Assembly (NCBI GenBank): GCA_009773805.1
Contig: WTXA01000001.1
Coordinates: 558,001 to 622,000 of the forward strand
Direction: 5' to 3'
Source of the DNA: Fusobacteriota bacterium
GTDB taxonomy: Bacteria; Bacillota; TC1
Length of the DNA: 64,000 bases
Part shown: positions 52,787-59,116 of the stretch, piece by piece
How the letters are laid out: the number at the start of each line of letters is the position of its first letter
Numbering within the stretch: position 1 is the stretch's first letter
Program-made: the position numbers and the translations under genes
Notes under the pieces: model-generated
Seen by the model: only the letters and a program-made list of their open reading frames with translations
Databases searched by the model: none
What the model was told of the DNA's origin: nothing

Positions 52787-54136
52787 ATGTCTAAACTAAA
52801 GATTACAGAAACCATTCTAAGAGATGCACACCAATCATTAATAGCAACAAGAATGACAACTGAAGAAATGGAACCCATTCTAGAAACTTTGGATAATGTT
52901 GGTTATCACGCACTTGAAATGTGGGGTGGAGCAACTTTCGATGCCAGTCTTCGCTTTCTTAATGAAGACCCTTGGGAAAGACTTAGAATTATTAAAAAAA
53001 ATGTCAAAAAAACAAAACTACAAATGCTACTTAGAGGACAAAACCTAGTTGGATATCGAAACTATAGTGATGATGTAGTTGAAAGTTTTGTTCGCTTATC
53101 AATAAAAAACGGCATCGATATCATCAGAATTTTTGATGCCTTAAACGATACTAGAAATATTAAAGTAGGTATTGATGCCTGTAAAAAATATGGTGGTCAT
53201 GCACAAGGTGCAATCTGCTATACCATCAGTCCAGTTCACACTAACGAACTCTTTGTAAACCTAGCTAGAGAAATAGAAGACATGGGTGCAGATTCAATCT
53301 GTATCAAAGATATGGCTGGACTTCTAGATCCATATAATACCTACGAACTAATAAGAGATATTAAAGCAGCAGTTGGAGTTCCAGTAGAACTTCATACCCA
53401 TGCAACAAGTGGACTTGGTTCTACTACCTATTTAAAGGCTGTAGAAGCAGGTGTAGATATAATTGATACTGCCCTTTCACCCTTTGGTGAAGGCACGTCT
53501 CAACCCTCAACAGAACCAATGGTTGCCACCTTCAAAGGAACTAAATATGACACTGGACTAAATCTTGATGCTTTAAATAAGGCAGCAGCATATTTTAGAC
53601 CTTTAAGAGAAAAGGCATTAGCTAGCGGATTATTAGATCCAAAGGTACTAGGCGTTGATATTAATGCTTTAATATATCAAGTTCCTGGTGGAATGCTTTC
53701 AAACCTTGTTCACCAATTAAAGTTACAAAATGCCTTCGATCGTTTTGATGATGTATTACAAGAAATTCCTAGGGTACGAGAAGATTTTGGTTTTCCTCCA
53801 CTTGTTACTCCAAGTAGTCAAATAGTTGGTAGCCAGGCTGTCTTGAATGTTCTTTTAGGTAAACGTTACAAAATGGTTCCAAGAGAAGCTAAAGATCTTG
53901 TTAGGGGTATGTATGGAAAACCAGCAATCCCAATTAGTGATGAAATATTAAAGATAATTATCGGTAATGAACGACCAATATCAGGTAGGCCAGCTGATCT
54001 TCTAGAACCAGAGTTAGAAAAAGCTAAAGCTGAACTTGGAGAATATATGGAAAGTGAAGAAGACCTACTAACCTATGTCCTCTTCCCTAAACCAGCATTA
54101 GACTATTTTAAATACAGACGACTACACAAAAAATAA
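52787..54136 (+). CDS. Oxaloacetate decarboxylase alpha / carboxyltransferase domain protein without biotin domain
   Basis: This is the carboxyltransferase barrel of oxaloacetate decarboxylase alpha or transcarboxylase 5S: ETILRDAHQSLIATRM, the metal-ligand HTHATSG, the carbamylated-lysine motif ICIKDMAGLL and the C-terminal QVPGGMLSNL. At 449 residues the biotin-carrying tail is missing, so a separate biotinyl protein is needed. No sodium-pump subunits lie nearby. It may act in pyruvate/oxaloacetate exchange or fermentation. Confidence 0.88.
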   Translation: MSKLKITETILRDAHQSLIATRMTTEEMEPILETLDNVGYHALEMWGGATFDASLRFLNEDPWERLRIIKKNVKKTKLQMLLRGQNLVGYRNYSDDVVESFVRLSIKNGIDIIRIFDALNDTRNIKVGIDACKKYGGHAQGAICYTISPVHTNELFVNLAREIEDMGADSICIKDMAGLLDPYNTYELIRDIKAAVGVPVELHTHATSGLGSTTYLKAVEAGVDIIDTALSPFGEGTSQPSTEPMVATFKGTKYDTGLNLDALNKAAAYFRPLREKALASGLLDPKVLGVDINALIYQVPGGMLSNLVHQLKLQNAFDRFDDVLQEIPRVREDFGFPPLVTPSSQIVGSQAVLNVLLGKRYKMVPREAKDLVRGMYGKPAIPISDEILKIIIGNERPISGRPADLLEPELEKAKAELGEYMESEEDLLTYVLFPKPALDYFKYRRLHKK

Positions 54137-54180
54137 TATAAATGAAGAAAATATAAGTACAAAAGATTACAAAATAATAC

Positions 54181-54211
54181 AAAAAAGATGCGTTTTAAAA
54201 CGCATCTTTTT
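54181..54211. terminator. Bidirectional terminator
   Basis: The stem AAAAGATGCGTTTT/AAAACGCATCTTTT is flanked by A and T runs. It separates the carboxyltransferase gene from convergent amt. Confidence 0.85.
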
Positions 54212-54244
54212 CAATTTCTACTAAATATATTATGATATATTAAT

Positions 54245-55459
54245 TTATATTCTATATGCATCTTCTTTATGAATGCTATAATCTAGACCTTGTAATTCTT
54301 CCTCAGGTGAAACTCTTATCTTCACGAAACGGTTCACTACAACTAGTATCAAGTAAGTTACAATAAACGCATAGGCGGCTGTAAATAATACAGCAAGTGT
54401 TTGCACCAATAATAACTTTGGATTTCCACCAATTAAGCCATTAACACCACCAATTTTTTCAACAGCAAATACCCCTACTAATATTGATCCTAAAATACCA
54501 CCTACTCCATGAACTCCCCAAACATCAAGAGCATCATCCCATTTTTTGACAGTACGTATTTGAACTGCCATGTAGCAAACAGCACCAGATGCTATACCAA
54601 TTAAAAATGCAGCCCATGGTTCAACATAACCAGCAGCAGGAGTTATAGTTGCAAGACCAGCAACAGCTCCAGTTAATGCACCAACAAAACTTGGACGTTT
54701 TTCCTTATACCAGGAAATTATTAACCAAGTTAACATCGCTACAGAACCAGCTATATCAGTATTAACAAAAGCAGCGGCAGCTATTCCATTAGCATGTAAA
54801 GCACTCCCACCATTAAAACCGAACCAACCAAACCATAGTAATGCTGCTCCTAAAGCTACATATGTTATGTTATGTGGTGTTCGATCCAACTTATCCAAGT
54901 TTTGTCTCTTACCAATAAATATAATTGATGCTAAAGCAGCCATACCTGCACTAACATGTACAACAATGCCCCCGGCAAAGTCAATAACACCCAACTGTTG
55001 CAAGAAACCTCCACCCCAGATCCAATGAGTGAAAGGAATATATACTAATAAACTCCAAATTACAAGAAACACTAAATAACCTTTAAAATTAACCCTGTCA
55101 GCAAAAGCTCCAGTAATTAAAGCCGGAGTTATTATAGCAAACATTTGCTGATATGTATAAAAGGCAACAAATGGTATTGTACCACCATAGACAGCACTTG
55201 GTTCCAGCCCCACTCCATTTAGAAATATATGTTGAAAACCACCAATGATTCCATTAATATCAGTACCAAAGGCCAAACTAAAACCAACAAGGAACCAAAT
55301 TGCAGTAACAACACCCATTGAGATAAAACTCTGCATCATAATAGTCAAAACATTTTTTCTGTTAACTAAACCTCCATAAAAGAAAGCCAGTCCTGGTGTC
55401 ATTAAACACACTAAAGCCGCACTGATTAGAACGAGGGCGGTATCACCTGTATCAATCAT
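54245..55459 (-). CDS. amt: Ammonium transporter (Amt)
   Basis: An 11-helix ammonium channel of 404 residues. The twin histidines of the pore are in FAGGIVVHVSAG and WGVHGVGG, and the aspartate needed for function precedes the first. It is encoded just downstream of a response regulator and an Amt-kinase fusion. I saw no glnK/PII gene beside it, which is unusual for amt. Confidence 0.93.
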   Translation of the reverse strand: MIDTGDTALVLISAALVCLMTPGLAFFYGGLVNRKNVLTIMMQSFISMGVVTAIWFLVGFSLAFGTDINGIIGGFQHIFLNGVGLEPSAVYGGTIPFVAFYTYQQMFAIITPALITGAFADRVNFKGYLVFLVIWSLLVYIPFTHWIWGGGFLQQLGVIDFAGGIVVHVSAGMAALASIIFIGKRQNLDKLDRTPHNITYVALGAALLWFGWFGFNGGSALHANGIAAAAFVNTDIAGSVAMLTWLIISWYKEKRPSFVGALTGAVAGLATITPAAGYVEPWAAFLIGIASGAVCYMAVQIRTVKKWDDALDVWGVHGVGGILGSILVGVFAVEKIGGVNGLIGGNPKLLLVQTLAVLFTAAYAFIVTYLILVVVNRFVKIRVSPEEELQGLDYSIHKEDAYRI

Positions 55460-55561
55460 TTAAACTCCTCCAATCTATAACTATACTAATGTAAATTATA
55501 GAACTGAAGGAGCTTATTAACAATCAGTATTTAACTGTATTATCAAGAATTATTTACTGTA

Positions 55562-56200
55562 TTAAGCCTCTATCAAATGATTTCTCACAGCATAAAGTAC
55601 TAGGTCAGCTATGTTTCTAAGGCCTAACTTTTTCATAATATTAGCTCTATGAGTTTCTACAGTCTTCACACTTAAATGAAGCGCTACTGCAATTTCCTTA
55701 TTACCCCTACCCTCAGCAAGCATTTGTAGTATTTCACGTTCTCTTATTGATAGTTGTTCAGTACTATCTTTACGATTATTAACAAATCCACCTACAACCA
55801 TCTGCAATAAATCAACTGATATAAATATCTTACCGGCTATCACAGTCTTTATGGCTTCAATAAGATCCTCCAAGGCATTATCTTTTAGCACATAACCATT
55901 AACCCCTGAACTCAAGGCCTTATAAAGCATTTCTTCAGATTTATGCATTGTCAGAATTATAACCTTAAGCTCAGGCATTTCGACCTTTAGTTTTTTACAT
56001 AAATCCAATCCGTTCAATTGTGGCATTGATATATCTAAAATAGCTATCTCCGGCTTAAGGTGTATTATTTCTTTATAGGCATCAAGACCGTTATCAGCTA
56101 CTCCGACGACATCAACTATTGCCTCCTGTCTGAGATAATGTTTTAATGACTCTCTTAATATTTTATGATCATCGGCTAGAAATACACGTCTAGTTTTCAT
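55562..56200 (-). CDS. NarL/FixJ (LuxR-type) response regulator
   Basis: The receiver domain shows DDHKILRESL, the phospho-acceptor in AILDISMPQ and the VLKD lysine. The LuxR helix-turn-helix (LSIREREILQMLAEGRGNKE, IAVALHLSVKTVETHR) occupies the last 65 residues. Its start overlaps the kinase gene by 11 bases, so it is surely the partner of the Amt-kinase. The downstream free amt gene is a likely target. Confidence 0.93.
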   Translation of the reverse strand: MKTRRVFLADDHKILRESLKHYLRQEAIVDVVGVADNGLDAYKEIIHLKPEIAILDISMPQLNGLDLCKKLKVEMPELKVIILTMHKSEEMLYKALSSGVNGYVLKDNALEDLIEAIKTVIAGKIFISVDLLQMVVGGFVNNRKDSTEQLSIREREILQMLAEGRGNKEIAVALHLSVKTVETHRANIMKKLGLRNIADLVLYAVRNHLIEA

Positions 56201-58103
56201 AAGGCATCTCCAATGTTATTTTAGTTCCTTTTCCATTTTGACTTTTAATATTTAATTTACCACCAAGTAATTTAGTCCTTTCAAGCATTGTGGTCATGCC
56301 CATACCTTCATATATATTATTAATATCAAAACCAATACCATTGTCTTCAATAGATATAATATACGAACCATGTTTATCCTTATCGAAAATAAGAATCACC
56401 TTATCAGCTTCCGAATGTTTCAATATATTACTTAAACTCTCCTGTACTATCCTGTAAACATTCAACATCTCAATTTCACCCAATAATGGTAATGGCGAAA
56501 TAATCTGAAACTCAAAAACTAAATCCTTGATTTTTTGAATCTGAGAAGTTAATTTTTGTATACTCTTCAAAAGCCCTTCTTCTTCAAGCTTAATAGGTTT
56601 CAAATTGTAAATTACAGTTCTTATTTCATCAACAGTATTATCAATCAAACCCATAATCCTAGTTGCTTGATCTTTTTGTCCATCACTAATTAATTTCTTT
56701 TTAAGCTGTCCCAAATCAATTTTAGAAGCTGCTAATAATTGACCTACGCCATCATGAAGATCTCTGGCTATTTTATCTCTTTCCTTTTCTTGAGTGGCCA
56801 TAAGTCGTTGTGATTTTTTTTCCAACTCTTGGTTTTGTTGCTGTATCTTAAGATACAGTTCATCAGTTATTTCTGTATAGGTTCTATCTTTGATTGCTTG
56901 TTGCCAGGAATAGAGATCAGAATATTCCACAATATTAAGACCCTGTTCCTCTTCTTCAGGTGTAACCCTAAGTCCGATGAATTTATCAATAATTTTAAAC
57001 ATAATATAACTCATACCAAAAACCCATACAAAATTTACTAATACCCCAAATATTTGTATACCAAGTTGCCACCAGCGATTAGATAATGACAATACCCCTT
57101 GATTAGCAAACAATGCTAATAACAATATACCTGAAACACTTCCAAACGCATGGATTGAAATAGCACCAACTGCATCATCAATTCTTAATTTCTCCAATAA
57201 AGCACTCCCTAAGATCACTATAATTCCTGTTATTAAACCAACAAAAAATGCTTGAATCGGTTCTAGAATATTTGAACTTGCAGTAATAGCGACCAAACCA
57301 CCTAGTGCCCCACTAAATATAGCCTCCATAAAGCTTCTATTTTTTAGGATAAAAAATACTGTGCAGACTGCACCTAATACCCCTGCCGATGCTGAAATAT
57401 TGGTGTTCATCAAAATTTGTCCAATACTATCATCGAACCTCATTAAACTACCACCATTAAATCCAAACCAGCTAAACCATAAAATAAATGTACCAAGTGC
57501 AGCAAAGGGGATATTGGATCTGCCCAGGTTCTTGATTCTGCCATTTGCATCCCATCGTCCTTTTCTTGGGCCCACAACTAAGACACCTGCTAGAGCTATC
57601 CAGCCTGCAGTACCATGAACTACAGTAGCCCCAGCAAAATCTATAAAGCCTAACTGTTGTAACCATGCACTTTGGTTCAAATATAAATTACCCCATACCC
57701 AATGACCGTAAACAGGATAAATCAAAGCTCCAACTACAATTGCACTTATGATTAACCCTTTAGTTTTTGTCCTTTCCGACATACTTCCTGAAAATATTGT
57801 TACAGCAGTTCCAGCAAACATCAATTCAAAAAAAACTATTACATAACTTGACGAGCCTTGTAAATGTGACCCAAACCAGAAATCACTGCCAAAAAGGCCA
57901 TGAAAAGAAGGTCCAAACATAATAGCATAACCCACAGCAAAAAATGATAACGTTGTAATTACAAATGCTATAATATTTTCTATTGCAACACTAACGACGT
58001 TTTTAGGACGAATGAAACCTACCTCATAGCAAATGAATCCGGCTTGCATAAAAAATACAAATAAGGCACATATCAAAACCCACATTTGGTCAATAATTCT
58101 CAT
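56190..58103 (-). CDS. Ammonium transporter-histidine kinase fusion sensor
   Basis: Residues 1-400 are an Amt channel (twin histidines in FAGATVVHGTAG and ISIHAFGSVSG; WFSWFGFNGGSLM). A coiled-coil linker follows (LYLKIQQQNQELEKKSQRLM). A HisKA_3 dimerisation domain holds the phospho-histidine in ARDLHDGVGQLL. A HATPase ends the protein (IVQESLSNILKHSEA; EDNGIGFD). Fusions of Amt with kinases exist, for example Amt5 of Kuenenia, which senses rather than transports ammonium. Here the kinase is of the NarX type. Confidence 0.92.
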   Translation of the reverse strand: MRIIDQMWVLICALFVFFMQAGFICYEVGFIRPKNVVSVAIENIIAFVITTLSFFAVGYAIMFGPSFHGLFGSDFWFGSHLQGSSSYVIVFFELMFAGTAVTIFSGSMSERTKTKGLIISAIVVGALIYPVYGHWVWGNLYLNQSAWLQQLGFIDFAGATVVHGTAGWIALAGVLVVGPRKGRWDANGRIKNLGRSNIPFAALGTFILWFSWFGFNGGSLMRFDDSIGQILMNTNISASAGVLGAVCTVFFILKNRSFMEAIFSGALGGLVAITASSNILEPIQAFFVGLITGIIVILGSALLEKLRIDDAVGAISIHAFGSVSGILLLALFANQGVLSLSNRWWQLGIQIFGVLVNFVWVFGMSYIMFKIIDKFIGLRVTPEEEEQGLNIVEYSDLYSWQQAIKDRTYTEITDELYLKIQQQNQELEKKSQRLMATQEKERDKIARDLHDGVGQLLAASKIDLGQLKKKLISDGQKDQATRIMGLIDNTVDEIRTVIYNLKPIKLEEEGLLKSIQKLTSQIQKIKDLVFEFQIISPLPLLGEIEMLNVYRIVQESLSNILKHSEADKVILIFDKDKHGSYIISIEDNGIGFDINNIYEGMGMTTMLERTKLLGGKLNIKSQNGKGTKITLEMPYEN

Positions 58104-58216: not shown

Positions 58217-59092
58217 TTATTTAATTAATCTACTAATTGAGATACCATCAGGTTCTAATTTTTGTTTGGCCAATTGTTTCATGTAAAATGACTTCTTGTC
58301 ATATAGATCCATGACAACTGCACCATTAGGACAATAATATAGACAATTAGTACAATGTACACAAATATCATCAGGTAGCATTGTTGGATAACCATCCTTA
58401 ATCACTAAATAATTAACTGGACATTTATCTACACAGATATAACATTGCTCACAAAGATCATAATTGAATTCTATATCAGGGAAACTATTAATAGTAACCA
58501 AGCGCTCATCAGCAAGATTAGGGAATTCAGCGAAACTACTAACGAGCTTTGATTCTATATCCTTAAGAGGTCTTTCCTTATCATCAACAACCTTAATCAA
58601 ATATTCTACAAAATCTTTTACAAGCTCTAAGACTTCATCACCTGGCAAGCCTTCACTTATTGGATAGTCTATATTTCTAGATACACAGTGCTCACTATCA
58701 ACCTCCAGTGCAGCCCATGTTTTACGCCCAACTTTACCCAGCTCCTTACAAGCTTCAGCAGTACCTACACCTGGTGTGATTTTACCAAAGGTTGTAAAAA
58801 CTCCAGCATTACTAGAATGACTTATATCATCAGCCTTAGGCAGTCTTGTAATTAAATCTAGAACATTATAGTGAAGATGGTCAATATATATTGGACCACC
58901 AATTAATAATAAGTCATGGCTTTCTATTCTATTGATGAATTTAAGAAAATCTCCATTAGGGAATAAATCTAGATCCTTTGTCATATTCAACAGTTGAACT
59001 TCCCAATCTAATCTTTCAAAATCCTTGCTTATAAAGTTTGCTACCTTCCCCGTACTACCACAAGGACTAAAATATATAATTACGACCTTCAC
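58217..59092 (-). CDS. EFR1-family flavodoxin-ferredoxin fusion protein
   Basis: An N-terminal flavodoxin domain (YFSPCGSTGKVANFI, GGPIYIDHLHYN) is followed near residue 218 by two 4Fe-4S sites (CEQCYICVDKCP and CVHCTNCLYYCP). Such anaerobe proteins shuttle electrons between low-potential donors and flavoenzymes. The start is a GTG at 59092 with GGAGG 6 bases upstream. Length is about 291. Confidence 0.88.
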   Translation of the reverse strand: MKVVIIYFSPCGSTGKVANFISKDFERLDWEVQLLNMTKDLDLFPNGDFLKFINRIESHDLLLIGGPIYIDHLHYNVLDLITRLPKADDISHSSNAGVFTTFGKITPGVGTAEACKELGKVGRKTWAALEVDSEHCVSRNIDYPISEGLPGDEVLELVKDFVEYLIKVVDDKERPLKDIESKLVSSFAEFPNLADERLVTINSFPDIEFNYDLCEQCYICVDKCPVNYLVIKDGYPTMLPDDICVHCTNCLYYCPNGAVVMDLYDKKSFYMKQLAKQKLEPDGISISRLIK

Positions 59093-59116
59093 ACTATACC
59101 TCCAAGACAAATATTA

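Follow-up and report, generated by a model that had tools for sequence, protein, structure and literature searches.

A candidate P-II-independent ammonium-sensing circuit in a conserved Amt-histidine kinase, regulator and amt gene triad of Bacillota

How might an ammonium channel protein that is fused to a histidine kinase report on ammonium in a bacterium without a P-II gene, and does it control the transporter gene next to it? This question is raised by three genes in the window (the whole analyzed stretch of 64,000 nt of DNA), which are encoded in the order fusion kinase, response regulator and canonical amt (Table 1). Sensor Amts are known so far from two characterized proteins. One of these, Ks-Amt5 of 'Ca. 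Kuenenia stuttgartiensis', is an ammonium sensor histidine kinase (PMC5764959) whose regulator, according to PMC12918730, had still to be identified. A limited literature search retrieved no publication on an Amt-HisKA_3 fusion. The locus described here packs receptor, kinase, regulator, candidate control site and target into 4 kb, and these parts are conserved as a set. With such a compact unit, every step between the binding of ammonium and transcription could be tested in a laboratory host. The unit also bears on the long-standing puzzle of how a channel that is a trimer can drive a kinase that is a dimer, and on whether external ammonium is sensed by Amts in the absence of P-II.

Table 1. 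Features of the triad and its surroundings, given as positions in the window.
Feature	Position	Strand	Remarks
Amt-histidine kinase fusion gene	56190-58103	minus	637 aa; Pfam domains
NarL/LuxR-family response regulator gene	55562-56200	minus	212 aa; Response_reg (REC) and GerE (Pfam)
Free Amt gene	54245-55459	minus	404 aa; assimilatory type
Candidate tandem control site	55525-55563	minus	AATACAG 55563-55557, AATACAG 55541-55535, CTG 55527-55525
Promoter-like TTGTTA-17-TATAAT for amt	55495-55523	minus	consensus match
Terminator-like hairpin 3′ of amt	54180-54213	minus	between amt and the convergent gene 52787-54136

The triad and its signaling proteins

Every domain of the three proteins has a strong Pfam match. 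In the fusion, Ammonium_transp covers residues 7-395 (345 bits), HisKA_3 residues 441-504 and HATPase_c residues 549-636, with a linker of about residues 396-440 in between, and both histidines of the twin pair (H163/H318) are present. A full twin-histidine Amt joined to a HisKA_3 kinase, as read in a preliminary description of this DNA, is therefore encoded here, and the 11-base overlap of the kinase and regulator genes noted there is also correct (56190-56200). The HisKA_3 domain (PF07730) scores 46.8 bits against a cut-off of 24 bits; the catalytic residues H450, N559 and D587/G589/G591 are intact, with the H, N and G boxes kept, and the receiver residues of the regulator (D10, D11, D56, T84 and K106) are intact as well. 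The assignment to HisKA_3 stands, but the original label “NarX-type” is loose, since the best named model is UhpB with 115 bits vs 69 bits for NarX, all named models scoring below their cut-offs, and the kinase is better given as a HisKA_3 kinase of the UhpB/DesK kind. A HisKA_3 kinase and a REC-GerE regulator in the same operon, which is a feature of two-component systems of the UhpB-UhpA kind, are found here.

An AlphaFold2 model of the fusion, built from eight sequences, has a mean pLDDT of 77, with poorer values in the linker and the kinase. It predicts, at low local confidence, one unbroken helix (residues 414-473) across the linker. Moreover, the linker indel between subclades is exactly seven residues long, i.e., one heptad. 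The modeled helix and the indel together support the coiled-coil linker named in the preliminary description, with its register kept. Upstream of the triad, the gene at 58217-59110 reads as a flavodoxin-like domain with a ferredoxin-type CxxC cluster region, and a homolog of it is also found near the triad in genome G001, a MAG from the same genus.

Searches within Bacillota with the protein or its profile, together with fetched regions, revealed 23 Amt-HisKA_3 loci, 20 of which carry an intact kinase-regulator-amt triad in the same order and orientation (L192 was counted as intact by reading its frames). In the three others, a stop interrupts the kinase frame (L200), the locus runs into a contig end (L199), or kinase and regulator are kept without an amt gene (L197). 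Such loci were found in 5 of 398 genomes of a phylum sample that included the own genus, in 9 of 74 genomes of one order and in 11 of 394 of another. The triads span several orders, the flanking genes differ between families, and the kinases of intact triads are 40-83% identical. The locus is thus not a one-off, and its recurrence in about 20 other species gives the triad the look of a complete ammonium-sensing circuit that can be tested directly.

A candidate control site and the proposed circuit

The gap between the regulator gene and amt carries the sequence AATACAG-N15-AATACAG-N7-CTG, with a period of 22 nt, the first two bases of which fall in the stop codon of the regulator gene. In 11 of 13 triads this tandem site scores 14-17 out of 17 (dinucleotide shuffle, p<=0.001 for each), and it is not significant in the remaining two of the 13 triads scored, L085 and L048. 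Period 22 pools 149, and no other period exceeds 121. The 11 site-bearing triads are not independent and represent about five lineages from two families. Four loci had already shown the motif when seven of the others (L149-L155) were fetched. Among these seven, L149 alone repeats the strict TACAGTNAA form, which was seen first, and the shorter AATACAG form was framed afterwards to cover all, so that the seven constitute a partial and not a blind test.

At the genome level, the perfect composite site occurs once each in the studied genome (G000) and in G403, G410 and G423, each time in the gap between regulator gene and amt, and the TACAGTNAA form is likewise restricted to this gap in G001, G012 and G160. 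About 0.0003 perfect composite sites are expected in a genome of the studied size. Two pattern searches for a wider regulon gave matches with two mismatches at about the frequency of a reversed-pattern control, and for this reason no wider regulon is claimed. A conserved site was also looked for upstream of the kinase gene, and none was found there. In a distant group, consisting of L048 and Lachnospira-like relatives, lag 22 ranks top (66 vs a mean of 52.7, s.d. 4.8). Because several gaps of this group hold terminator-like hairpins by eye, a control site there was set aside and is not claimed.

The −10 box of amt lies 27 nt 3′ of the CTG in the studied genome and 27-28 nt in relatives, so that the two sites would fall near −66 and −44 in combination with a weak −35 box. 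Sites near these positions together with a weak −35 box are a layout typical of activators. Based on the 20 intact triads and the conserved single-locus candidate site in front of amt, control of the neighboring transporter gene, as first suggested in the preliminary description, is very probable.

Overall, the triad probably forms a P-II-independent two-component ammonium sensor circuit which would switch on its own amt gene, similar to UhpCBA and UhpT. The Amt part of the fusion would be a plugged channel that acts as a receptor: NH4+ would pass the outer filter and bind a buried site made up of Q20, E27, N43, T102 and S105, where E42 probably supplies the charge that D50 provides in Ks-Amt5. 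The change upon binding would be relayed via the coiled-coil linker to the HisKA_3/HATPase kinase, which would phosphorylate the NarL-type regulator encoded next to it, and the phosphorylated regulator would then bind the tandem site and activate the amt transporter gene. NH4+ as the ligand, binding by the regulator, activation rather than repression, and the polarity are all four steps that we infer. As judged from the sequences, the circuit is real and conserved, and its regulator, its target and a probable control site are identified.

In the Uhp system, the transporter-like receptor UhpC, the HisKA_3 kinase UhpB and the regulator UhpA turn on the transporter UhpT (PMC11077982). The enterobacterial system thus resembles the triad in its transporter-like receptor, its kinase class (UhpB being the best named model for our kinase), its NarL-family regulator and in having a true transporter as target. 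In contrast to Uhp, receptor and kinase are one protein here, and the receptor is an Amt, with ammonium as the presumed ligand, and not a sugar-phosphate antiporter.

Given the rest of the circuit, a ligand-on polarity appears somewhat favored by analogy, as phosphorylation of Ks-Amt5 goes up from zero to low NH4+ (PMC5764959) and the transporter of the Uhp system is induced by its substrate (PMC11077982). The same circuit could also operate with the opposite sign, so that the apo kinase is active, NH4+ shuts it off and amt is induced by ammonium shortage. Such a mode would match scavenging physiology and the usual nitrogen regulation, it is compatible with the sequence, and Ks-Amt5 phosphorylation goes down again at high NH4+ (PMC5764959); the two analogies speak against it, however, and we consider it possible but doubtful.

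With either sign, the regulator would act on amt. That it instead acts mainly on other genes, and that the tandem site is the target of a different factor or serves repression, is unlikely. Regulator binding to the site is a step that we infer, and single-site targets would be missed by a genome search that used one composite pattern, but the site co-occurs with the triad, has its perfect copies there alone and is located at activator distance from a promoter with a weak −35 box, all of which favors amt as the target.

The fused Amt and its ammonium site

Among proteins of solved structure, the fused Amt is closest to Ks-Amt5 (371 bits) and Sd-Amt1 (308 bits), with AmtB at about 132 bits, and the same two sensors are the top folds in a Foldseek search with the fusion model. 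For the free Amt, the closest chains are A. fulgidus Amt1 (381 bits) and E. coli AmtB (298 bits), and the sensors score about 170 bits. In a FastTree phylogeny of 106 Amt modules, the 23 fused Amts group without exception in a single clade (support 1.0). This clade lies within a 29-leaf clade (support 1.0) that also includes Ks-Amt5, Sd-Amt1 and, from other phyla, four unfused Amts, and that stands apart from the assimilatory Amts. The comparison to the Amt5 sensor kinase made in the preliminary description is borne out by this proximity in both sequence and fold. At the sequence level, the fused Amt is a sensor-type Amt of the Ks-Amt5 kind.

Comparison with the residue list of Ks-Amt5 (PMC5764959) showed that, besides the twin histidines, the Phe gate F96/F215, the filter W137/S219 and D155, the equivalent of AmtB-D160, are all present in the fused Amt. 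The plug residues F27, Y30 and F34 of Ks-Amt5 correspond to F23, Y26 and F30; in the alignment, F27/F34 occur in unfused Amts too, whereas Y30 alone does not. Loop 5 spans 20 aligned residues, the same length as in Ks-Amt5, vs 15 in AmtB and AfAmt1, and is shorter in the relative L048 (12 residues). At the buried site, Q20, E27, N43 and T102 match Ks-Amt5 Q24, E31, N47 and T109, and S105 is found in place of T112, whereas two residues are changed (D50 to A46 and T51 to F47). The D50 position is A, T, N or S in all 22 readable fused Amts, and each of these has a Glu at the Ks-Amt5 R46 position, one helical turn before D50 (E42 in the studied fusion), which is seen in none of 83 other Amts. This Glu shift may represent a relocated acidic ligand, and since the fused clade is monophyletic, the Glu/D50 change may be one event. 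The free Amt carries T21, Y28, S44 and S47 at the sensor-site positions.

The site residues were rejected as proof of a sensor. Most of them (Q/E/N/D/T) are shared by unfused Amts and by Amt-PII fusions, so that the buried site alone does not prove sensing, and only Y30 and the E46/D50 change, the latter a single-clade trait, are particular to the fused clade in our sample. The residues Q/E/N/D/T are common in unfused Amts although the site was described as absent from assimilatory Amts, indicating that the Ks-Amt5-type ammonium site marks a wider Amt clade.

According to the preliminary description, ammonium might be sensed by occupancy of the pore. A fused Amt that remains a working ammonium channel and signals flux or the occupancy of its pore to the kinase would be in agreement with the intact filter, Phe gate, twin histidines and AmtB-D160 equivalent, but it is quite unlikely in view of the three bulky plug residues, as in the non-conducting Ks-Amt5, and of the separate assimilatory Amt in 20 of 22 testable loci (counting those with an intact kinase). 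Instead, the residues point to a plugged pore with a buried Ks-Amt5-type ammonium site beside it, in which one ligand has been relocated.

The fusion shares with Ks-Amt5 the Amt-kinase architecture, the best match in sequence and fold, the intact filter, gate and histidine pair, the plug, a loop 5 of equal length, the four kept site residues and the lack of an adjoining P-II gene. It differs from Ks-Amt5 by its HisKA_3 rather than HisKA (PF00512) domain, by the changes at D50, T51 and the R46 position, and by having, next to its gene, a NarL-type regulator gene of its own and an amt gene that bears a conserved candidate control site. Sd-Amt1, the ammonium receptor of Shewanella denitrificans (PDB 8qj3/8qj4), is likewise a sensor Amt with a fused cytoplasmic output. 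It is the second-best solved match and a member of the same 29-leaf clade, but keeps an Asp (D48) at the D50 position. In addition, its output domain, which we take to be a diguanylate cyclase (c-di-GMP), is unlike the kinase output of the studied fusion.

P-II content and distribution of Amt genes

The studied genome (1.68 Mb, 98.5% complete) encodes exactly two Amts, the fusion and the free Amt. No match to the Pfam P-II model (PF00543) was detected in the whole 1.68 Mb genome, nor beside amt, while the same model gave a match in 13 of 14 control genomes. The initial observation of a second, adjoining Amt and no PII gene thus holds for the entire genome and not for the neighborhood alone. 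PII independence is further supported by two other triad genomes, G001 and G398, in which a Pfam P-II match was not found either. Five to seven P-II genes each, as well as other Amts, are present in the triad genomes G012, G160 and G114.

As in the AmtB-GlnK (P-II) system, an Amt would be under a control tied to nitrogen status, but the studied genome is without a P-II gene, and control would be transcriptional via kinase and regulator. Tentatively, we propose that in P-II-free Bacillota the kinase might replace P-II as the ammonium sensor and a single operator might induce the sole transporter, and that the second acidic ligand of the ammonium site might have moved by one helical turn (from R46/D50 to E46/A-T50), which could confer an affinity or selectivity unlike that of Ks-Amt5.

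In three sister species of the same genus (G002-G004; two of the genomes are incomplete), no Amt was found, indicating a patchy distribution of the entire ammonium-transport unit among members of the genus. Although this patchiness would suit a chance assembly or recent shuffling of a two-gene regulator and amt without joint function, such an origin is hardly credible, as it is already disfavored by the conservation of 20 intact triads with kinases of 40-83% identity and different flanks.

The triad of G114 (L085:8859-11984) adjoins a nifH-like gene, and two P-II genes follow about 2 kb downstream. Other Amt fusions were seen as well. Amts with a C-terminal P-II domain occur in many Bacillota (L055-L075, 17 sequences), and a further Amt-P-II fusion (L190:2489-4264), with the P-II domain confirmed by Pfam, is encoded on an Enterococcus raffinosus megaplasmid. 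Amts joined to a chemotaxis MCP signaling domain, which are likely ammonium chemoreceptors, were found once in the same phylum (L077:431-2689) and once on a conjugative plasmid of Phaeobacter inhibens (L189:2429-4894). Finally, a plasmid of Vibrio sp. THAF191d encodes a 762-aa Amt (L188:2474-4762), the C-terminal part of which reads like another class of histidine kinase.
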